Source: Azospirillaceae bacterium
GTDB taxonomy: Bacteria; Pseudomonadota; Alphaproteobacteria; Azospirillales; Azospirillaceae
Reading direction: 5' to 3'
Length of the DNA: 64,000 bases
NCBI GenBank assembly: GCA_035645145.1
Contig: DASQNC010000007.1
Location: 1 to 64,000, forward strand
Part shown: positions 28,015 to 49,081 of the stretch, one piece after another
How the letters are laid out: every line of letters starts with the position of its first letter
How positions within the stretch are numbered: the first letter of the stretch is position 1
The notes under the pieces: generated by a model
Database searches by the model: none
What the model saw: only the letters and a program-made list of their open reading frames with translations
Told to the model about the DNA's origin: nothing
Made by a program: the position numbers and the translations under genes

Positions 28015-28506
28015 TCAGCCGGTCTTCGCGAACATGAAGTACCGGCCGGGCTCCACCGTTTCCGGCAGGGGCAGCGGGGCCAGGTCCGGGAGGTCCAGCG
28101 GCTGGTCGCCGACCACCACGGCCCCGTTCGCCAGCAACGGCACCAGGAGCCGGGCGGCTGCCGCGGCCAGCCATCGGCTGGCCGCCTCGTCGCCGTTGCC
28201 GACATCCATGTGGGCGAGCACGGCCGGCGCGCCGATCCGGGCGCCCGCCGTGGGCAGTGTTTCCAGGAAGTCGCCGAGGATCAGGCGGTCGGGCGGCGGC
28301 AGGGACCGCGGGTGCGCCATCACTTCGCGTTCGAACACGAAGACGTCCCGGCCGGGAAGCCGTTCGACCAGATGGGAATAGGTCCGGCCGTTGCCGAGGC
28401 CGAGTTCCAGCACCGGCCCGGACAGATCGGCCACCCGTGCGGCGGCCGCGTCCAGGCAGTCGCGTTGCGCGGTCAGCCGGCGGATGAAGCTGTCGAGCCG
28501 GCTCAA
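28015..28506 (-). CDS. Small class I SAM-dependent methyltransferase-like protein
   Basis: The 163-residue protein has motif I VLELGLGNGRTYSHL, then FVFEREVMAHP, an LILGDFLETLP acidic loop, and VLAHMDVGNGDEAA. This is a compact Rossmann methyltransferase without the usual C-terminal cap. The start fits MSRLDSFIRRLTAQRDCLDAA, a helix seen in relatives. It is the last gene of a three-gene set with the cyclic-nucleotide-binding protein (10 bp upstream) and the unusual ABC exporter, so it probably works with them. Its substrate is unknown. It could also be a SAM-binding protein without activity. Confidence 0.75.
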   Translation of the reverse strand: MSRLDSFIRRLTAQRDCLDAAAARVADLSGPVLELGLGNGRTYSHLVERLPGRDVFVFEREVMAHPRSLPPPDRLILGDFLETLPTAGARIGAPAVLAHMDVGNGDEAASRWLAAAAARLLVPLLANGAVVVGDQPLDLPDLAPLPLPETVEPGRYFMFAKTG

Positions 28507-28516
28507 CGCACCTCCC

Positions 28517-28975
28517 TCAGCCCTTCGTGGCCACGGCCTCGCGCAACTGCCGGGTGGTTTTTTCCAGGCGCTGGGCCAGGACGCGCATGATCTCCACCGC
28601 CATCTGCGGGAACTCGGTGATCAGGCGGAAGAACAGTTCCTTCGAGATGCACAGGGTATTGAGTTGGGTCGCCGCGCGGATGGTTGCCGTGCGCGGCACG
28701 TCGCACAGGATGGCGATTTCACCCACGAAGTCGTTCCGGCCCACGGTCGCCACCTTCAGCGGCCCGTTCGGCGTGTTCACGATGACCTCGGCCTCGCCAT
28801 CCATGATGATGTAGGCGGCGTTGCCCATCTCGTCCTGACGGAACAGGATGTCGCCGGCATTGAAGACGACCCGTTCGCTGGTGAAGGCCAGCAGCTTCAG
28901 CTTCGACTGCTCGACATTGGCGAACAGCGGGATCTTGCGCAGCAGTTCGACTTCTTCCGCCAGGCTCACAACCAT
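28517..28975 (-). CDS. Stand-alone cyclic-nucleotide-binding domain protein
   Basis: The 152-residue protein is almost entirely one cNMP-binding domain (Crp/Fnr-type beta roll) plus a C-terminal helix. It has LLRKIPLFANVEQSKLKLLAF, ILFRQDEMGNAAYIIMDGEAEVIV and the phosphate-binding cassette GEIAILCDVPRTATIRA with its conserved Glu and Arg, so binding of cAMP or cGMP is plausible. There is no DNA-binding helix-turn-helix, so it is not a classic CRP regulator. It lies 31 bp behind the ABC exporter gene and 10 bp before the methyltransferase gene, which suggests it regulates that exporter by protein contact (inference). Confidence 0.85.
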   Translation of the reverse strand: MVVSLAEEVELLRKIPLFANVEQSKLKLLAFTSERVVFNAGDILFRQDEMGNAAYIIMDGEAEVIVNTPNGPLKVATVGRNDFVGEIAILCDVPRTATIRAATQLNTLCISKELFFRLITEFPQMAVEIMRVLAQRLEKTTRQLREAVATKG

Positions 28976-29006
28976 CCTCCCTTTCGCGGCCGATCGTCAT
29001 CGGCCG

Positions 29007-31652
29007 TCACTCCTGCCCTATGACCTCGTCGACGGGCGTGCCGGGACGTGTGACTTCGTCGAACGTCCCGTTCGCGACCAGCTGGCCGTTCTGCAGGACC
29101 AGGACACGGTCGAAGTGGCGGGCCATGCTGGGCCGGTGGACGAACCAGACGAGGCCGCGCCCCTTGCGGGCTTGAAGCGCCATGGTGTGTACCACCGCCT
29201 GGCTCGCCCCGTCGAGGCCGGCCGTGGCCTCGTTCAGGACCAGAAAATCCGGATTCTTCAGGAGCGCCCGGGCCAGAAGGACTTTCTGCCGTTGCGCGGC
29301 GGACAGCCGCGATCCGCCGATGCCGACGGGCATGTCCAGGCCGACGGACACGATGATGAGGCGCAGGTGGAGCTGTTCGACCACCGCCGCCAGCAGGCCG
29401 CCGATGCGCGTCCCCACCTGCGGCTGGCCGTAGGCCACCTTGCCGAACAGGATGTTGTCCTGGAGTGTGGCGGCCGGGTTGTAGCGGTCGGGGCGGAAGA
29501 ACGCCACGGCGCCCTTCAGATGGTCGGGCAGGTCGCGGGCGAAGACCCGCCGGGCCTCCAGGATGCGGGCCTGCATGGCCGCGTCCAGCAATCCCAGGCG
29601 GTGGCGGGCGACCACCATCTTGAAGGGCAGGCGCAGGATCTGGTCGCGGCTTTCGCCGGTCAGGGCCCCCAACCCGTCGCGCGCGACACGTTGGATGATG
29701 GGCTGGAAGGCGGGCAGGTCCTCGGCGCTGATGAAGCTGAACCGCTCGAAGAACTCGTGGCCGGGCGGCAGGTCGGCGAACAGCTCGACCATGGTTTCCG
29801 CCATCTTGACGCCCATGCGCAGGAAGTCGTCCGTCAGGCCGGTGCGGTCCAGAACCTGCAGCGTGTAGGGGTGGGTCGCCAGATTGTCGTGGGCGAACTC
29901 GGCCCGGATGGGGGACCCGAACAACAGGTTCTCGGCCACCGAGGCGTTGGTGTTGTACCGGCCGGGGTCGAACCGCTCGACCAGTTGCGCCAGCGCCGGC
30001 TCCTCCAGATGGGCTTGGACGGCCGCCCGTGCCTCCAGAATGCGCTTGGCGGCGTCGGGGTGGCGGACGGGGTCGATCCGGCCATGCAGGCCCAGGGCAT
30101 AGACGTCCGCGGTCAGGTCCACCGTGTCGAGGACATCCAACAGGCGTTGCTCCAACTCGGCCGGCGAGGAGCAGCCGGCCGCCTTGTAGTCCACCCAGTC
30201 GGCGTTGATGTCGAAGTCCGCGTTGCCCGCGGCGGCGGCCTCCATGGCGCGCCGCCTGCGCCGGATCCTGCCCTGTGCGTCGTACCGGGCCGGTCGCAAC
30301 GGCCGGTGCCGCAGCCCGTAGATCAGGTTGTCGCGGACCGTGGCGGTCAGCAGGTACGCCGTGGGGCCGACATAGGCGATCCGGCGGCCGGTCACGGCGG
30401 CCGGCAGCCGGTACAGGTCGCGGTCGCCGATCTGGACCCGCCCGCCGGACGGCGGCAGAAGCCCGGCCAGCATCATAGCCAGTTCGGTTGCGCCGCCGCC
30501 GGTCGAAATGACGGCGACGTGCCGGCCGGCCGGGATTTCCAGGCTCAAATCCTCGACGACCCTGCGGCCGGTGTCCTCGGCGATGGAGACGTTCGCCAGG
30601 TTGATCGGGCCGTCGAGCGGCCGGTCGTCCTCCGGTTCGCCGTCGAGGTCGGGCGCCTCCCGGACGCCGGCGGGTTGGAACTGCTCGACGATCTGCTCGT
30701 ACTTGACCCGTACGTCCTCCTTCTGCTGGTACCAGTCCAGGAGCTCCTTCCACGGGCCGGCGAGGTCCTTGTACGCGGCCAGCACCGCCACCAGGGCACC
30801 GAAGGTGATGGTGCCCTTGATCACCAGATAACCGCCGATGGAATAGAAGAAGAAGGGCGTGAGCTGGTTGATGAAGTTGTTCAGGAATTTGATGAAGAAC
30901 TTGCGTTGATAGATTTCGAAGCGGACGTCGTAGATGTCGCCCAGCCGGTGGGACACGTCCGCCAAGTGCCATGCGGCGGCATCGTTCGACCGGATTTCCT
31001 GGATGCCGGCGATGGACTCGCCGACCCGGTCCGAAACACTGCGCATCAGGCGCACGCGGAGCTTGCCCAGCTGGTTCACCTTGCGTTGCAGCCGGGGAAT
31101 CAGCCAGCCCTGGAAGGGGTAAAGCGCGACCGCCGCCGTGCCCAGTACGGGGTCCTGCACGAAAATGAAGGACAAATAGACCAGCAGCATGCCGCCCTGC
31201 TGGGCGGGTTGGGCAATGGCCTCGCCGATGAAGTTGCCGACGGGTTCGGTTTCGGCCGTGATCATGGAGATGATCTCGCCCGTGCTGGTCCTGCGGAAAT
31301 GGGGCAGGGGGAAGCGCAGGATCTGCGCGTACAGCGAGTACCGCAGCCGGCGCAGCATCCGCTCGTTCAGGCGGCCCTTGAACGTGTTGATGACGTACTT
31401 GAAGGCTCCGTTGATGAGGACCAAACCCAGGAACCCGACGGACAGCGTCATCAGGTACGGGATCTGGTCCAGCTCGAACCCGAAGAGCCTCTTCGGGAAT
31501 CCGCCCTCGCCGGCGATCGCCATGTCGATGATCGTCTTCGGCAGGTCGAGCGAATAGTAGACGAACGGGTAGCTGGCGGCGATCAAGACCAGCAGGATGA
31601 TCTGCTGACGCCGGCTGTGTTTCAGCGCGAACCGGAAGAGGGTGGGTTCCAT
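29007..31652 (-). CDS. ABC exporter-like protein with degenerate, enlarged nucleotide-binding domain
   Basis: The 881-residue protein begins with a type IV ABC exporter membrane domain (about 1-320) with hydrophobic helices and the coupling-helix region RTSTGEIISMITAE. The ATPase part (about 350-881) is twice normal size and lacks key residues. The Walker A position reads STGGGATEL (383-391) without Lys. The signature is LSAAQRQ (783-789), and Walker B is FLVLNEAT, with Asn807 for Asp but Glu808 kept. His839 is kept. The T-x-x-D-N-I-x-F-G motif after the Q-loop occurs three times (437-446, 569-579, 727-737), suggesting internal duplication. ATP hydrolysis in the usual way is doubtful. It heads an operon with cNMP-binding and methyltransferase genes and is divergent from a glycosyltransferase operon. 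It could be a regulator or a hetero-partner of another ATPase. Confidence 0.85.
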   Translation of the reverse strand: MEPTLFRFALKHSRRQQIILLVLIAASYPFVYYSLDLPKTIIDMAIAGEGGFPKRLFGFELDQIPYLMTLSVGFLGLVLINGAFKYVINTFKGRLNERMLRRLRYSLYAQILRFPLPHFRRTSTGEIISMITAETEPVGNFIGEAIAQPAQQGGMLLVYLSFIFVQDPVLGTAAVALYPFQGWLIPRLQRKVNQLGKLRVRLMRSVSDRVGESIAGIQEIRSNDAAAWHLADVSHRLGDIYDVRFEIYQRKFFIKFLNNFINQLTPFFFYSIGGYLVIKGTITFGALVAVLAAYKDLAGPWKELLDWYQQKEDVRVKYEQIVEQFQPAGVREAPDLDGEPEDDRPLDGPINLANVSIAEDTGRRVVEDLSLEIPAGRHVAVISTGGGATELAMMLAGLLPPSGGRVQIGDRDLYRLPAAVTGRRIAYVGPTAYLLTATVRDNLIYGLRHRPLRPARYDAQGRIRRRRRAMEAAAAGNADFDINADWVDYKAAGCSSPAELEQRLLDVLDTVDLTADVYALGLHGRIDPVRHPDAAKRILEARAAVQAHLEEPALAQLVERFDPGRYNTNASVAENLLFGSPIRAEFAHDNLATHPYTLQVLDRTGLTDDFLRMGVKMAETMVELFADLPPGHEFFERFSFISAEDLPAFQPIIQRVARDGLGALTGESRDQILRLPFKMVVARHRLGLLDAAMQARILEARRVFARDLPDHLKGAVAFFRPDRYNPAATLQDNILFGKVAYGQPQVGTRIGGLLAAVVEQLHLRLIIVSVGLDMPVGIGGSRLSAAQRQKVLLARALLKNPDFLVLNEATAGLDGASQAVVHTMALQARKGRGLVWFVHRPSMARHFDRVLVLQNGQLVANGTFDEVTRPGTPVDEVIGQE

Positions 31653-31840
31653 GCCGGAAGCGTCCCAGGATGAGCGACGCCCGCGCCGTGCCCGGCAGCG
31701 CGCAGAAGTGGGAGGCTAGCCCAACCCCAATGCCCGCGCAAACATGCGGTCTTCCGCATGGCCTTCACACCGCGGCTTTGTTAAAAATCAAACAACCAAA
31801 ACTCGCGCCTTTGCAGCGCAGCCCGCCCATGTGAGGGTCC

Positions 31841-33076
31841 ATGCCCCTCCAGCGCCGAGATCAGGCCAGGGTCCTTATCTACAGCCATGACACGTTCGGG
31901 CTGGGCCACCTTCGCCGCTGCCGCGCCATCGCCCACGCGTTGGTGCAGAACAACAAGGGCTTGTCGGTTCTAATACTTTCAGGCTCACCCATCATCGGTA
32001 GCTTTGATTTTCCATCGCGCGTGGATTTCGTCCGCGTCCCCGGCGTCATCAAATTGCGGAACGGCGAATACACGTCCTTGAACCTGCATGTGGACACCGA
32101 GCAGACGCTCGCCATCCGGGCATCGATCATGCGGCACACTGCCGACATCTTCGATCCGGACCTGTTCATCGTGGACAAGGAGCCGCTTGGTCTGCGGGGC
32201 GAACTCGAGGACACGTTGACCCTTCTCAAGAACCGGGGCACCCCGATCGTACTCGGGCTGCGCGACGTCCTGGACGACCCGGACCTGCTGGCGCCGGAAT
32301 GGCAGCGCAAGAACGTGCTGCCGGCGCTGGAACGGTTCTACGACGAGCTGTGGGTCTACGGCCTTCCACAGGTCTGCGATCCGCTGGCGGGGATTGCACT
32401 GCCCCGGCCCGTGCGCCGGCGCATGGTGTACACCGGCTATCTCCGGCGCGAGATGCCCGCGAGCGTTCCCCCCCAGCCCGAGGGGACGGACGATCCCTAC
32501 ATCCTGGTCACGCCCGGCGGGGGCGGCGACGGCGAGGCCATGGTCGATTGGGTGCTGCGGGCCTACGAGTCGGACCGGGATCTGCCCTGCCGCGCGCTGA
32601 TCGTTTTGGGCCCGTTCATGCACACCGAGGCGCAGGCCGAATTCATCGCCCGGGCCGCCGGGCAGCCGAAGGTGGAGGTCGTCACCTTCGACGCCAAGAT
32701 GGAACGCCTGATGCGGGGTGCCGTGGGCGTGGTCGCCATGGGCGGCTACAACACGTTCTGCGAAATCCTGTCCTTCGACAAACCGGCGCTGATCGTCCCA
32801 CGGACCATGCCGCGCATGGAGCAGTTCATCCGCGCCAGCCGGGCCAGGGATCTCGGTCTGATGGACATGCTGGCCGACGACGGGGTACGGGCGCCCGAGG
32901 TCATGGCCGCCGCCCTGCGCCGCCTGCCGCATCGGGCGCCGCCGTCGCGCGTGGTGATGCCGGGCCTGCTGGCCGGGGTCGAGAACGTGCAGTGGTTGGC
33001 CGAGCGCTGGCTCCAACCGGGACTCGGGCGCCGGCCCTTGACCATCGCCGTGCGCCGCCAGGGCACCGTCGTCTGA
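31841..33076 (+). CDS. Glycosyltransferase, MurG-like GT-B family
   Basis: The 411-residue protein has the N-terminal VLIYSHDTFGLGHLRRCRAIAHAL loop (described by its GLGHLRR core), a middle LRDVLDDP segment, and the C-terminal donor-site elements YILVTPGGGGDGEAMVDW and VVAMGGYNTFCEILSFDKPALIVPR. These match the GT28/MurG type and the paralogue at 17614-18768. No signal or membrane helix; it should work at the cytoplasmic face of the inner membrane. ATG at 31841 opens the plus-strand operon of three glycosyltransferases and a phosphatase. About 190 bp with an AT-rich core separate it from the divergent ABC gene, likely a shared promoter region. Confidence 0.85.
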   Translation: MPLQRRDQARVLIYSHDTFGLGHLRRCRAIAHALVQNNKGLSVLILSGSPIIGSFDFPSRVDFVRVPGVIKLRNGEYTSLNLHVDTEQTLAIRASIMRHTADIFDPDLFIVDKEPLGLRGELEDTLTLLKNRGTPIVLGLRDVLDDPDLLAPEWQRKNVLPALERFYDELWVYGLPQVCDPLAGIALPRPVRRRMVYTGYLRREMPASVPPQPEGTDDPYILVTPGGGGDGEAMVDWVLRAYESDRDLPCRALIVLGPFMHTEAQAEFIARAAGQPKVEVVTFDAKMERLMRGAVGVVAMGGYNTFCEILSFDKPALIVPRTMPRMEQFIRASRARDLGLMDMLADDGVRAPEVMAAALRRLPHRAPPSRVVMPGLLAGVENVQWLAERWLQPGLGRRPLTIAVRRQGTVV

Positions 33077-33087
33077 CCGGCGTGCCC

Positions 33088-34374
33088 ATGCCACGGACCG
33101 CCGTCGTCGTGAAAGGCTATCCGCGCCTGTCGGAGACCTTCATCGCACAGGAGATCCTGGGGCTCGAGCGCCAGGGCCTCGACCAGGTGATCGTCTCGCT
33201 GCGGCATCCGACCGACAAGGCCGTGCATGCGATGCACCGCGAAATCCGGGCACCGGTCCTGTACCTGCCCGAATACCTGTACCGGGAACCGTTGCGGGTT
33301 CTGCGCGGCGTAATCCGTGCCACGCGCCTGGCCGGTTTCCGGCGGGCGGCCGTCCTGTGGCTGCGTGATCTCCTCCGCGACCGGACCGCCAACCGCAGCC
33401 GTCGCTTCGGCCAGGCCTGCGTGCTGGCGGCGGAACTGCCGGCGGATGTGGAGCGGCTGCACGCCCATTTCCTGCACACGCCGGCCAGCGTTGCCCGCTA
33501 TGCCGCCGTCATGCGCGGCCTGCCCTGGAGCTTTTCCGCCCACGCCAAGGACATCTGGACCACACCCGACTGGGAAAAGCGCGAAAAGCTGGCCGATGCC
33601 GCCTGGGGCGTGACCTGCACCGCGTCCGGTGCCGTCCACTTGAACGGCCTCGCCCCGGCCGGCGCCCCCGATCCCGTTCGGCTGGTCTATCACGGGCTGG
33701 ACCTGGGCCGGTTCCCGGTCCCGCCGGCCCGGTCCCCCCGCAACGGCCGCGATCCGGGCGATCCGGTGCGCATCCTGTCGGTCGGGCGCGGCGTGGAAAA
33801 GAAGGGGTTCGACACGGCGGTCGAGGCCCTGGCCGCACTCCCTCCGGACCTCGCCTGGCGCTGGACGCATGTGGGCGGGGGCGGGCTGATCCCGGCCCTG
33901 AAGGCGCTGGCCGCCGCGCGCGGGGTGGCCGACCGGATCGAGTGGCGCGGCGCCCGCGCGCAGGACGAGGTGATCGCCGCCTATGCCGAGGCCGACATCT
34001 TCGTCCTGCCCAGCCGGGTTGCCGCCGATGGTGACCGCGACGGGCTGCCCAATGTCCTGATGGAGGCCCAGGCCATGGGTGTCGCCTGCATCGCCACGCC
34101 GGTGTCCGGGATCCCCGAACTGATCCTGGACGGCGAGACCGGCGTGTTGGTCCCGCCGGGCGACCCGGCCGCCCTGGCCGGTGCCATCGCGGCCCTTGCC
34201 CGCGACCCGGTCCGCCGCGCGGCCCTGGCCGATGCCGGCCGCGCCCGCGTGCAGGCCCATTTCACGTTCGACGGCGGGCTCGCGCTTTTGGCGGCGCGGT
34301 TCGGGATCGGCGATCCCCCGGCGGTCGGTGCTCCGGCATTCGGGGCCCGCGTCCCGCGACATGCCCGCGGATAG
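33088..34374 (+). CDS. GT4-family glycosyltransferase
   Basis: The 428-residue GT-B protein begins MPRTAVVVKGYPRLSETFIAQEI, an N-terminus common in exopolysaccharide/capsule GT4 enzymes. The acceptor-side DVERLHAHFLHTPASVARYA and SFSAHAKDIW segments follow. The C-terminal retaining-transferase signature is EADIFVLPSRVAADGDRDGLPNVLMEAQAMGVACIAT (described by its E-x7-E core), then GIPELILDGETGVLVPPGD. It transfers a sugar from a nucleotide donor with retention of configuration; the sugar is unknown. ATG at 33088 is used; a GTG two codons earlier is possible. It lies 11 bp after the previous gene and overlaps the next by 14 bp. Confidence 0.9.
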   Translation: MPRTAVVVKGYPRLSETFIAQEILGLERQGLDQVIVSLRHPTDKAVHAMHREIRAPVLYLPEYLYREPLRVLRGVIRATRLAGFRRAAVLWLRDLLRDRTANRSRRFGQACVLAAELPADVERLHAHFLHTPASVARYAAVMRGLPWSFSAHAKDIWTTPDWEKREKLADAAWGVTCTASGAVHLNGLAPAGAPDPVRLVYHGLDLGRFPVPPARSPRNGRDPGDPVRILSVGRGVEKKGFDTAVEALAALPPDLAWRWTHVGGGGLIPALKALAAARGVADRIEWRGARAQDEVIAAYAEADIFVLPSRVAADGDRDGLPNVLMEAQAMGVACIATPVSGIPELILDGETGVLVPPGDPAALAGAIAALARDPVRRAALADAGRARVQAHFTFDGGLALLAARFGIGDPPAVGAPAFGARVPRHARG

Positions 34375-35512
34375 GTCCGGTTCCGTGCGGATCGCCTTCT
34401 ACGCACCGCTCAAGGCACCCACCCACCCCGTTCCGTCGGGCGACCGGCGGATGGCACAGATGCTGATGGCGGCCCTGCGGGCGGCCGGCCACCGGGTGGA
34501 TCCGGCCTGCGCGCTCCGGACGCTGGACCATGGCAAGGTCGCGGGCCGGCAGGCCCGGCTGCGCGATCTCGGCCGGCGGGCGGCCCGGCTGCTGGTCCGG
34601 CGCTGGCGGGATGCACCGCCCGACCTGTGGTTCACCTACCACCTCTACCACAAGGCGCCGGATTGGACGGGACCGGCGGTGGCCGACGCCCTCGGCATCC
34701 CCTATGTCGTGGCCGAGGCGTCGCACGCCCCCAAGCAGGCCCATGGCCCCTGGGCCGAGGGCCACGCGGCGGCGGAGGCCGCGATCCGCCGTGCCGACCG
34801 GGTGCTGGCGATCACGGCCGCCGACACCGGGTGCCTGGCCCGGATCGTGGCCCCGGACCGGCTGGTGCGGCTGGCGCCCTTCCTCGATCCCGCGCCCTTT
34901 TCCGCGGCCGCGGCCGAACGCCCCGCCCACCGGGCCGCCTTGGCCGCCCGCTTGGGTTTGCCGGCGGACGAGCCGTGGCTCGTGGCGGTCGGGATGATGC
35001 GCGACGGCGACAAATCGCGGAGCTGGCACCTGCTGGCCCGTGCCCTGGAACGCCTGCGGCCCATCCCCTGGCGCCTGCTGGCGGTGGGCGACGGGCCGCG
35101 GCGCGACGACATCGAGGCCGCCTTTGCTCATCTCGATCCCGGTCGCGTCCGCTTCCTCGGCGGGTTGGCGCCGCCGGACCTCGCCGCCTGCTGCGCCGCA
35201 TGCGACCTGATGGTGTGGCCTGCCGTGAACGAGGCGTACGGCATGGCGCTGCTGGAGGGCCAGGCGGCCGGGCTGCCGGTGGTGGCGGGCCGCACCGGCG
35301 GTGTGCCCGACGTGGTGGCCGACGGGGTGACCGGTCTGCTGCCGCCGGTGGGCGATGCCGATGCGTTCGCCGCGGCCATGGCGGAGTTGTTGCGCGATCC
35401 CGTCCGCCGTGCCGCCATGTCGGCCGCGGCCCGGACCAGGATCGCCGATGTGCACGGGTTCGGGCGCGCCGTTTCGGTCCTGGATGCGGTCGTGCGGGAG
35501 GTGTGTGGATGA
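34361..35512 (+). CDS. GT4-family glycosyltransferase
   Basis: The 383-residue protein begins VRIAFYAPLKAPTHPVPSGDRRMAQML after a short leader. It has a LWFTYHLYHKAPDWTGPAVA segment and the GT4 donor site LMVWPAVNEAYGMALLEGQAAGLPVVA, with GGVPDVVADGVTGLLPPVGD after it. Either ATG 34361 (overlapping the previous gene by 14 bp) or GTG 34385 could start it; the longer form is listed because the overlap fits the tight operon. It should add one residue to the same glycan as its neighbours. The sugar donor is unknown. Confidence 0.88.
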   Translation: MPADRSGSVRIAFYAPLKAPTHPVPSGDRRMAQMLMAALRAAGHRVDPACALRTLDHGKVAGRQARLRDLGRRAARLLVRRWRDAPPDLWFTYHLYHKAPDWTGPAVADALGIPYVVAEASHAPKQAHGPWAEGHAAAEAAIRRADRVLAITAADTGCLARIVAPDRLVRLAPFLDPAPFSAAAAERPAHRAALAARLGLPADEPWLVAVGMMRDGDKSRSWHLLARALERLRPIPWRLLAVGDGPRRDDIEAAFAHLDPGRVRFLGGLAPPDLAACCAACDLMVWPAVNEAYGMALLEGQAAGLPVVAGRTGGVPDVVADGVTGLLPPVGDADAFAAAMAELLRDPVRRAAMSAAARTRIADVHGFGRAVSVLDAVVREVCG

Positions 35513-36108
35513 TCGAACTGATCCTGGTTCGCCATGGACCGACCGCGTGGAACCGCGACGGCCTGGTCCAGGGGCGCACCGACGTGCCCCTGTCCGACGA
35601 GGGGCGGGCGGAGGTGTCGCGCTGGCGTTTGCGCGAAGCCTGGGGCGGTCACGTCTGGTGGTCGAGTCCCCTGTCCCGCGCGCGGGAGACGGCGGAAATC
35701 CTGGGCCTCTCGCCCGTCGTGGATCCGCGGCTGGCGGAGATGGACTGGGGCCCCTGGGAGGGGCGCCGGCTGGACGATCTGCGGGCGGAACTGGGCGACC
35801 TCATGCGCGCGTGGGAGGCCAAGGGCCTGGACTTCCGGGCGCCGGGGGGCGAGTCGCCCCGCGACGTGCAGGCCCGTCTCAAAGCGTTGTTCGCCGAGAT
35901 GGCGGCGGCCGGCCATCCGGCGGGGGCCGTGTGCCACCGCGGCGTGATCCGCGCCGCCTATGCGTGGGCGGTGGGTTGGGACATGACGGGCAAGCCGCCC
36001 CACAAGCTGAAGGACGGCTGCGCCCACCGCTTCGCCCTGGCACTGGATGGCCGGCCGGAAATCCTGGAATTGAACGTGGCGCTGGCGGAGGATCGGATCG
36101 CGGGGTGA
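35509..36108 (+). CDS. Histidine phosphatase-superfamily protein (phosphoglycerate mutase-like)
   Basis: The 199-residue protein has the catalytic LVRHGPTAWN motif, then GRTDVPLSDEGRAEV, SSPLSRARETAEIL, and the second catalytic His in GAVCHRGVIRAAY. This is the GpmB/CobC-like phosphatase group, not glycolytic mutase. The ATG overlaps the TGA of the preceding glycosyltransferase (ATGA). That coupling suggests a role in the same pathway, for instance dephosphorylating a sugar-phosphate or sugar-lipid intermediate. This is inference; the substrate is not recognisable. Confidence 0.88.
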   Translation: MIELILVRHGPTAWNRDGLVQGRTDVPLSDEGRAEVSRWRLREAWGGHVWWSSPLSRARETAEILGLSPVVDPRLAEMDWGPWEGRRLDDLRAELGDLMRAWEAKGLDFRAPGGESPRDVQARLKALFAEMAAAGHPAGAVCHRGVIRAAYAWAVGWDMTGKPPHKLKDGCAHRFALALDGRPEILELNVALAEDRIAG

Positions 36109-46824: not shown

Positions 46825-47829
46825 TCACGGGTGTCCGTCCGTCCCGCACGCCCGCTCCAGCACGTGCCGCGAGATCTTTTGGTCAGAGAGGGAGTTCCAA
46901 TCTTCCATGCCGTCCGGCAGGTTGCCGTGGGCACCCGCGATCTCGGCGACCACCGTCGTGGCGACCACCAGCACGCCGCCGTCCACGCGGATGTCACGGC
47001 CGTCCAGCCCGGCGTCGATAACCACCAGCGGGTGGTCGTAGACGAAAGTGAGCAGGCGGTCGTCCTCGGTCACCAGGTGCGAATAGAAGTAGGCGGGTCG
47101 GGCGAGCAGCGCTTCGGCGCCCTGGTCGCGGACGGCGGCGCAGGCATCGGGCACCACCCGCCCCTCCTGGTCGTGCACCAGCGCCAGGAAGAAGTCCTCG
47201 GTGGGTCCGCTGTCGACCGACCGGCAAATGTGGTGGGCCCAGTTCTGCTCGTTGTCGAACGTGCCGAGGCGCCCGTACTGGATGAGGTGCCGGTGGCTTG
47301 CCGTCTCCGCCAAGCCTTCCGATTGGATCCAGCCCCCTTCCACCGGGCGCAGCTCGGCCTTCAGACCGACGCGGTGTTCGACGCCGCGGGTGTGGCGGCT
47401 CAAGTCCTCCCGCGCCGGCCCGGGGAAGGCATTGCCCCTGTCCGAGCGGATCAGCTGCAGGTAGAAGCCGGTGTGCAGGTTGTGCAGCCCGAAGCGCTCG
47501 GCGCCATCGGGCGTGGTGACGGCGTAGCCCACGAACAGCTGCCGGGTTGCCGTGTCGACATACTCTCTGATGTGTCTATGGGTTTCGAAGTCCTCGCGGG
47601 CGAGGTGCAGGGCACGGAAGCCGGGGGCCAGCCCGCGCACCGGCACCGGCGGGGTGGTGGGAATTGGGGATGACCCCTCGCCACAGGCTTTCGGGCCGGC
47701 ACCCTCGGGGGGACGGGGGATGTACTCGACCTCCTCGTCCGCCGTGTCCTGAGCGCTCACGATGCCGGCCGTAAGCGCCAGCCAGACCGTGGCGACACCG
47801 GCCAAAACCCGTCTTGCCATGTTGGTCAT
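46825..47829 (-). CDS. Secreted protein of unknown function (paralogue A)
   Basis: The 334-residue protein begins with a Sec signal peptide (MARRVLAGVATVWLALTAGIVSAQ, cleavage likely after SAQ/AQD). The mature part has no motif I recognise. Landmarks are VPVRGLAPGFRALHLARED, FVGYAVTTPDGAERFGLHNLHTGFYLQ, TEDFFLALVHDQEGRVVPDAC and a C-terminal GLDGRDIRVDGGVLVV...ISRHVLERAC. It is clearly homologous along its length to the broken gene at 48055-49081. The ATG at 47827-47829 has GGAGGAG five bases before it and overlaps the stop of a 45-codon ORF. It is probably a periplasmic or outer-surface protein. The two cysteines (in PDAC and ERAC) are conserved between paralogues. Confidence 0.75.
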   Translation of the reverse strand: MTNMARRVLAGVATVWLALTAGIVSAQDTADEEVEYIPRPPEGAGPKACGEGSSPIPTTPPVPVRGLAPGFRALHLAREDFETHRHIREYVDTATRQLFVGYAVTTPDGAERFGLHNLHTGFYLQLIRSDRGNAFPGPAREDLSRHTRGVEHRVGLKAELRPVEGGWIQSEGLAETASHRHLIQYGRLGTFDNEQNWAHHICRSVDSGPTEDFFLALVHDQEGRVVPDACAAVRDQGAEALLARPAYFYSHLVTEDDRLLTFVYDHPLVVIDAGLDGRDIRVDGGVLVVATTVVAEIAGAHGNLPDGMEDWNSLSDQKISRHVLERACGTDGHP

Positions 47830-47963
47830 CGTCTCCTCCCCGCTGCGTGCGCCGGGCCGGTCACGGGGCGGGCGGGCGCCATCGTCCATGCAATCACCGA
47901 TAGCATGGTCGGGCAGGGCTCCCCAACCGGGTCCGCCCGTGGACTGGTGGGATCGTCGCTCAT
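47826..47963 (-). CDS. Possible 45-residue leader protein coupled to paralogue A
   Basis: ATG 47961-47963 has a strong GGAGG seven bases upstream. The frame (MSDDPTSPRADPVGEPCPTM...) ends in a TGA that overlaps the ATG of paralogue A (ATGA). The placement, directly behind the terminator of the previous gene, suggests a translated leader or small coupled gene. No homology recognised; coding is inferred from context only. Confidence 0.45.
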   Translation of the reverse strand: MSDDPTSPRADPVGEPCPTMLSVIAWTMAPARPVTGPAHAAGRRR

Positions 47964-47981
47964 GTGTCCTCCGGAAAAGAA

Positions 47982-48010
47982 AAGAGCCGCCGGTGGGGCC
48001 GGCGGCTCTT
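47982..48010 (-). terminator. Intrinsic terminator after paralogue B
   Basis: A perfect 12-bp stem (47982-47993 with 47999-48010) with a five-base loop is followed on the minus strand by a TTTTCTTTT tract (the first bases lie in the stem). It closely resembles the terminator at 46747-46777, and the preceding 70-80 bases of 3' untranslated sequence are also nearly the same. Confidence 0.85.
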
Positions 48011-48054
48011 GGGTGGGAACGGTGCCCGCCCGGTGCGGGGCGGGGGTGGGGATC

Positions 48055-49081
48055 TCAGGGACGGGACCCCGCCCGGCACGCCCGTTCCAGCACGTGCCGC
48101 GAGATCTCTTCGTCGGAGAGGCTGCTCCAGCCCTCCATGCCGGATGGCAGGTTGCCGTGGGTGCGTTCGATTTCGGCGACCACCGCCTTGGCGACCACCA
48201 GCACGCCGCCGTCCACGCGGATGTCCTGGCCGTCCAACCCGGCGTCGATCACCACCACCGGGTGGTCGTAGACGAAGCTGACCAGGCGGTTCTCTTCGGT
48301 CACCAGATGCCAGACATGGCGGACGGGCACGGCGAGCAGCGCGTCGGCGCCCTGGTCGCGGACGGTGGCGCAGGCATCGGGCACCACCCGCCCGGCTTGG
48401 TCATGCACCAGCGCCAGGAAGAAGTCCTCGGTGGGGCCGCCGTCGACCGACCGGCAGATGTAGCCGGTCCAGTTCTGGCCGTTGTCGAACGTGCCGAGGC
48501 GGCCGTGCTCGACGAGGTGCCGGTGGCCCGCCGTCTGCACCGTGCCCTCCAGGAAAATCCAGAAGGGCATTTCCAGTTTCCGCAAATCGGCCTTCAGGCC
48601 GATGTGGCGTTCGACGCCGCTGGTGCTTCGCTGCCACTCCCGCAGTTCCGGTCCGGGGAAAACGCCTGCCACGCCGGAGCGGACCAGTTGCAGGTAGAAG
48701 CCGGTGTGCAGGTTGTGCAGCCCGAAGCGCTCGCTGCCGTCGGACAGGGTGACCACGTAGCCCACGAACAACTGGCCGGTCGCGGCATCCACATAGGTTC
48801 CCGCTTCGCGGTGGGTCTCGGCGTCTTCGCGGGCAAGGTGCAGGGCGCGGAAGCCGGGCGCCAGCCCGCGCACCGGCACCGGGCGTGCCGTGCGGATTGG
48901 GGATGACACGTCGCCACAGATCACCGGGTCGGCCCCCCCCGCGGGGCCAGACCCGGTCGGTGTCCTCGACCTCCTCCTCTGTGTCCTGGGTGGTGTCCTG
49001 GGCGCGGACCGCGCCGGCCGCGAGCGCCAGCCAAACCGTGGCGACACCGGCCAGAACCCGTCTTGCCATGTTGATTGCCAT
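48055..49081 (-). pseudogene. Secreted protein paralogue B, frameshifted in a G8 run
   Basis: The ATG at 49079-49081 starts a signal peptide (MARRVLAGVATVWLALAAGAVRAQ) nearly the same as in paralogue A. The frame is lost at a run of eight G (minus strand; C8 at 48933-48940). The rest of the protein continues in the other frame from ADPVICGDVSSPI to the stop at 48055, closely matching paralogue A throughout (VPVRGLAPGFRALHLARED, TEDFFLALVHDQ, GLDGQDIRVDGGVLVV, ISRHVLERAC). With seven G the gene would be intact (about 340 residues). It may be a true null, a phase-variable gene, or a homopolymer sequencing error. Function unknown. Confidence 0.8.

Follow-up and report, generated by a model that had tools for sequence, protein, structure and literature searches.

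The window, a stretch of 64,000 nucleotides from an Azospirillaceae bacterium, encodes on its minus strand an 881-residue ABC protein that combines an exporter fold with degenerate ATPase motifs and a duplicated segment of the nucleotide-binding domain (NBD). The protein belongs to an old family that is widespread in the Alphaproteobacteria and is no decaying singleton, and its gene lies beside genes for a cyclic-nucleotide-binding protein and three glycosyltransferases. The family and the operon are solid, and the mechanism is what we infer from them: given the lost ATPase residues, the duplicated piece of the motor, and the cyclic-nucleotide-binding and sugar-transferase partners, the ABC protein probably has an unusual way of controlling or carrying out export, with a sugar polymer of the cell surface as the cargo.

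Exporter fold and altered ATPase motifs

The gene and the motifs of its product were located as follows.

29007..31652, minus strand: ABC-exporter-like protein with an atypical NBD (open reading frame, Pfam, AlphaFold, VIA structural matches)
30663..31652, minus strand: transmembrane part, residues 1-330, where the family is most conserved (pairwise identity)
30480..30506, minus strand: degenerate Walker A, STGGGATEL, residues 383-391 (alignment; family consensus GxxGSGK[D/E]EL)
29286..29306, minus strand: degenerate signature, LSAAQRQ, residues 783-789 (alignment)
29229..29246, minus strand: degenerate Walker B, FLVLNE, residues 803-808, with N807 and E808 (alignment)
29136..29138, minus strand: H-loop His839 (alignment)

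Homologues aligned with the protein over its full length at 49-65% identity, and differences from one of them (L001) were most frequent at the third codon position (0.26/0.18/0.41 for the three positions); thus, 29007-31652 is a real, conserved coding gene. An antisense open frame of 941 residues (28848-31673, plus strand) covers it and is most likely a high-GC mirror ORF. Pfam placed ABC_membrane (PF00664; 1e-20, 74.8 bits against a cutoff of 28) at residues 66-291 and ABC_tran (PF00005; 7e-13, 49.8 bits against a cutoff of 25) C-terminal to the membrane domain. The NBD extended over approximately residues 348-881 (approximately 534 residues), in agreement with the first-pass annotation, which had put the ATPase part at about 530 residues, twice the usual size.

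The AlphaFold model (pLDDT 85.7) gave its best VIA matches to ABC exporters, with Z of 29-30 for the whole chain (first row, rmsd 3.6 over 444 residues). The type I (type IV fold) exporters MsbA, PCAT1, and MsRv1273c/72c are alike in whole-chain fold at this Z and in the order of membrane domain and NBD; the query differs from them in the doubled size of its NBD, in an insert with an extra helical-subdomain unit, and in its noncanonical Walker A, signature, and Walker B. Superposition covered 239 of the 240 residues of the ComA NBD (rmsd 1.9 Å), and a confidently modeled helical insert lay within this otherwise standard domain. Neither the sequence nor the AlphaFold model contained a canonical P-loop elsewhere in the chain, which holds one standard NBD fold plus the insert.

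All residues that the first-pass annotation had named were found in place. Motifs were counted in 146 distinct members, unthinned by identity. A full Walker A (GxxGxGK[ST]) was present in 5 members, an LSGGQ-type signature in 2, and the Walker B Asp-Glu pair in 6; the query has STGGGATEL, LSAAQ, and N807-E808 in their places. The H-loop His was present in 55. No member had all four motifs, one (L079) had three, and 81 had none, whereas 7 of 7 ordinary exporters of the query's own genome, placed in the same alignment, had all four. The Roseobacter-type members (L119-L124) lacked all four motifs and kept the repeat motifs described below. With no complete set among the 146 homologues and no P-loop elsewhere in the chain, the earlier proposal of a conserved family with noncanonical ATPase motifs was not refuted, and these counts bear it out.

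The proposal that loss of the Walker A Lys characterizes the family was not upheld: position 388 was Lys in 78 members and Arg in 35 (113 of 146 together). Because a basic residue is kept more often than lost, Ala388 and the shortened loop of the query are a lineage-specific extreme. In most close relatives, Asp/Glu stood in place of the Ser/Thr that follows the Lys, and position 808 was Glu in 82 members. Throughout the family, Walker A, signature, Walker B, and H-loop have departed from consensus, which speaks against ATP turnover as its conserved function, and the ABC protein presumably does not hydrolyze ATP; residual nucleotide binding or slow hydrolysis may occur in the many members with Lys/Arg388 and Glu808.

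The insert and its repeated helical-subdomain motif

The enlargement of the NBD comes with an insert and with three copies of one motif.

29487..30299, minus strand: insert, residues 452-722, without a Pfam match, holding the copy 2 unit (profile self-comparison, hhalign, structure)
30315..30344, minus strand: motif copy 1, ATVRDNLIYG, residues 437-446, in native position (hhalign to same-genome exporters, probability 96)
29916..29948, minus strand: motif copy 2, NASVAENLLFG, residues 569-579, N575 invariant (profile self-comparison)
29442..29474, minus strand: motif copy 3, AATLQDNILFG, residues 727-737, N733 and G737 invariant, leading into the native helical subdomain

The insert is approximately 270 residues long and lies inside the NBD. 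R542, N575, R701, N733, and G737 were identical in all 146 members. The threefold occurrence of the motif, noted in the first-pass annotation, was above chance. Self-comparison of the family profile gave z of 9.5 for copies 2 and 3, 6.1 for copies 1 and 3, and 5.5 for copies 1 and 2, with further matches in register in the helices after each motif. With hhalign, copies 2 and 3 matched at a probability of 98.4 (E 5e-15) and a score of 82 over 80 columns, whereas none of 60 column shuffles scored above 17; the matches of copy 1 were weaker (copy 3, 31 against a shuffled maximum of 20; copy 2, 27 against 22). The insert profile independently rematched the copy 3 position in about a dozen genomes, and the tail of unit 1 also matched the tail of unit 2 in the profile comparison. 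The motif had been called Q-loop-like, and this part of the description was not sustained: the motif directly follows the Q-loop, whose Gln is mostly absent as well.

Unit 3 matched the whole stretch of ordinary exporters from the post-Q-loop motif to Walker B (probability 99.6). Because copy 1 and unit 3 both match native exporter segments, the insert splits the native NBD and unit 2 is the extra copy, with copy 1 as the native post-Q-loop segment. The partial NBD duplication suggested earlier is thus supported by the homology of copies 2 and 3, the native position of copy 1, and the structure predicted for the insert. Modeled in isolation, with copy 3 absent (pLDDT 90), the insert was matched best by VIA to ABC helical subdomains, namely, those of SUR1, CFTR NBD1, MRP1, ABCC6, PCAT1, and ComA, with a Z of 6.1 and an rmsd of 2.4 over 70 residues for the best of them. 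Foldseek returned no significant match of the isolated insert to the PDB (E above 1), so that these modest structural matches (Z about 6) are supportive rather than decisive. A reading of the RILEAR helices in units 1 and 2 as signature helices was hinted at by VIA only and was unsupported by profile comparison (t1-t3, t2-t3). It is through the alpha-helical subdomain that the motor is normally linked to the membrane domain.

Family, conservation, and gene neighborhood

A scan of genome contigs yielded 364 relatives, and 80 loci were kept, including those of Azospirillum, Skermanella, Inquilinus, Nisaea, Thalassobaculum, SAR116, and many MAGs. All 80 aligned over the full or nearly full length, insert included, with predicted lengths mostly of 857-897 residues and one longer ORF. 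The insert profile (A3, residues 452-722), used as the family marker, was found in 131 of the 385 alphaproteobacterial genomes sampled and in 87 of 277 genera; among 398 sampled Pseudomonadota genomes, no member was found outside the Alphaproteobacteria, to which all 31 positives belonged. Further members were found in plasmid records of Rhizobium, Sinorhizobium, Ensifer, Ruegeria, Sulfitobacter, and Tritonibacter. Two copies under other names, L022 (titled Mycobacterium sp. KBS0706) and L014 (Anaerolineae), were close to Inquilinus-type or other alphaproteobacterial ones and probably represent mislabeled or mis-binned alphaproteobacterial DNA. We found no description of the family or the locus in the searchable literature; Pfam and NCBIfam gave no family-specific model, and PADLOC gave generic matches only.

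Mean pairwise identity within the family was 63% in the membrane part, 45-52% in the NBD, and 50% in the insert. The pattern was reversed in a family of ordinary exporters from the same class (membrane part, 60%; NBD, 68%). Conservation is therefore inverted in this family relative to ordinary exporters, with the membrane part more conserved than the NBD, and the insert and transmembrane part are under strong constraint. This constraint speaks against the simple decay of catalysis that had been proposed and, together with the exporter fold, argues that the transmembrane part still does something specific.

Three genomes (G331, G154, and G042) carried two or three divergent family copies (L119, L120, L122-L124, L126, and L127), with the most degenerate ATPase motifs met in the family. 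The copy of S. meliloti 1021 (L139; NC_003078.1 841723-844372) appears to be split by a frameshift into frames of 243 and 805 residues, unlike that of strain R14 (L141), which is a single intact CDS.

The genes around the ABC gene in the window were the following.

28015..28506, minus strand: Methyltransf_17 family SAM methyltransferase (PF12692, 3e-52; 57/76 loci)
28517..28975, minus strand: cyclic-nucleotide-binding-domain (cNMP) protein, 152 residues (PF00027, 5e-19)
31841..33076, plus strand: glycosyltransferase 1 (MJ1255/VC2487-like), divergent (family match; 56/60 loci)
33088..34374, plus strand: glycosyltransferase group 1 (a) (PF13692, 4e-33; 56/60 loci)
34385..35512, plus strand: glycosyltransferase group 1 (b) (PF13692, 2e-29; 56/60 loci)
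35509..36108, plus strand: histidine-phosphatase-family protein (PF00300, 1e-43; 53/60 loci)

The cNMP protein was encoded on the strand of the ABC gene, almost always directly downstream, in all 76 loci whose sequence extended far enough; in one (L060), the domain lay within the open frame of the ABC gene. In Roseobacteraceae and in some Azospirillum plasmid copies, the ABC protein carried the cNMP domain as a C-terminal fusion. The cNMP protein has no DNA-binding domain, and its phosphate cassette (G-E...P-R-x-A) was intact (Gly, 151/152; Glu, 146/152; Arg, 152/152; Ala, 152/152). The ATP site thus seems to be gone, and the cyclic-nucleotide site is kept. Seven class III cyclase matches were found in the query's genome.

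The three glycosyltransferases lay divergently upstream of the ABC gene in 56 of 60 loci. Genome-wide, glycosyltransferase 1 and the ABC family occurred together in 124 genomes, one without the other in 7 and 3, and neither in 251 (Fisher P = 7e-88, phylogenetic relatedness uncorrected), and the co-occurrence also held where the two genes were far apart or on different contigs. The ABC protein belongs together with the cNMP protein and the glycosyltransferases, as is evident from the conserved gene partners, the fusion, and the co-occurrence. To judge from the gene families, a shared surface-glycan pathway would be the simplest reading. Rhizobial clusters also held adenylate/guanylate cyclase genes, a dipeptide-type ABC importer, and a nucleotide-sugar dehydrogenase, and the Sulfitobacter cluster held a polysaccharide deacetylase. 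Elsewhere in the window, at 46825-48906, a minus-strand ORF (46825-47889) resembles the neighboring stretch under a plus-strand mirror ORF (47905-48906), which suggests tandem paralogues of an uncharacterized secreted protein.

An ABC exporter linked to a cNMP-type domain is also found in HetC and in NHLM-type exporters. In the exporter HetC of Nostoc, the cNMP-type domain is needed in vivo and was shown to bind ppGpp in vitro (PMC10986499). That domain is N-terminal, whereas the present family has it as a C-terminal fusion or as a protein of its own, encoded downstream; HetC further differs in possessing a C39 peptidase and in depending on an ATPase residue, whereas the present family has lost its ATPase motifs. 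MsbA2 (SMb21191) of Sinorhizobium meliloti pSymB is likewise an ABC exporter encoded beside glycosyltransferases, but its locus (about 938 kb) differs from that of the S. meliloti homologue (841.7-844.4 kb), which rules out that the two are the same.

Proposed function and alternatives

The cNMP partner and the glycosyltransferase locus, neither of them mentioned in the first-pass annotation, point to a function in surface-glycan biology under cyclic-nucleotide control. We rank first, at about an even chance, a pseudo-ATPase that cyclic nucleotides control and that serves a surface-glycan pathway as transporter or gate. Here, an exporter-fold ABC protein with a multiplied helical-subdomain segment would work without a canonical ATPase site. 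The cNMP protein would most likely dock on the enlarged NBD, and the binding of cyclic nucleotide, not ATP turnover, would switch the transmembrane part. The latter would gate or scaffold the flipping or export, at the membrane, of a surface glycan that the three neighboring glycosyltransferases synthesize. The glycan substrate, the gating by cyclic nucleotides, and the absence of ATP hydrolysis are inferred. A further reading we consider less likely than not: the whole exporter-fold family would have exchanged ATP hydrolysis for control by cyclic nucleotides, with its ATP site taken apart and its coupling subdomain multiplied, and a sensor of cAMP/cGMP would now switch the membrane domain in a surface-glycan pathway.

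Ranked second, and unlikely on balance, is a homodimeric glycan or glycolipid exporter that is still driven by ATP through a noncanonical site (Lys/Arg plus Asp/Glu in Walker A, an Asn-Glu Walker B, and a degenerate signature), with the cNMP protein as a mere regulator. The retained Lys or Arg388, Glu808, and the one member with three of four motifs count for it, and against the cyclic-nucleotide-controlled pseudo-ATPase, and it would also agree with the complete NBD fold that superposes on ComA. Against it stand Ala388 and the shortened loop of the query, the 81 members without any canonical motif, the Roseobacter-type members that lack all four, and the shift of conservation to the insert and the membrane part.

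We hold it quite improbable that the protein forms a heterodimeric exporter as its degenerate half, with the active half encoded elsewhere, as in TM287/288, TAP, and MsRv1273c/72c. One degenerate nucleotide-binding site is well documented in heterodimeric type I exporters (PMC7756269, PMC12038006), and the many ordinary exporters in the genome would allow for an unlinked partner. However, TM287/288, TAP, CFTR, and MsRv1273c/72c, in which exporter NBD residues are likewise degenerate, keep one canonical site, whereas the query has no evident canonical partner and nearly all of its motifs are altered; with Walker A, signature, and Walker B all changed, neither composite site of a dimer would be complete. 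Neither the window nor the annotated clusters examined had a half-exporter partner gene beside the ABC gene, and an NBD of about twice the normal size is not accounted for. A decaying remnant without dedicated function is highly implausible, for catalytic residues do drift among members, but ORFs are intact and full-length in more than 100 genomes across many families, insert residues are invariant, and the gene neighborhood is fixed; intact homologues also rule out a pseudogene or an isolated decay.

The family gene is present in about a third of the sampled alphaproteobacterial genomes, and the annotated plasmid copies (Rhizobium, a Sinorhizobium meliloti strain, and others) are labeled as generic ABC transporters only. 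If the ATP site is dead, the family would be a natural test of an exporter fold without hydrolysis and could also tell whether such a fold can be driven or gated by a cyclic nucleotide. The locus marks uncharacterized cyclic-nucleotide-linked glycan genes in genetically tractable plant symbionts.
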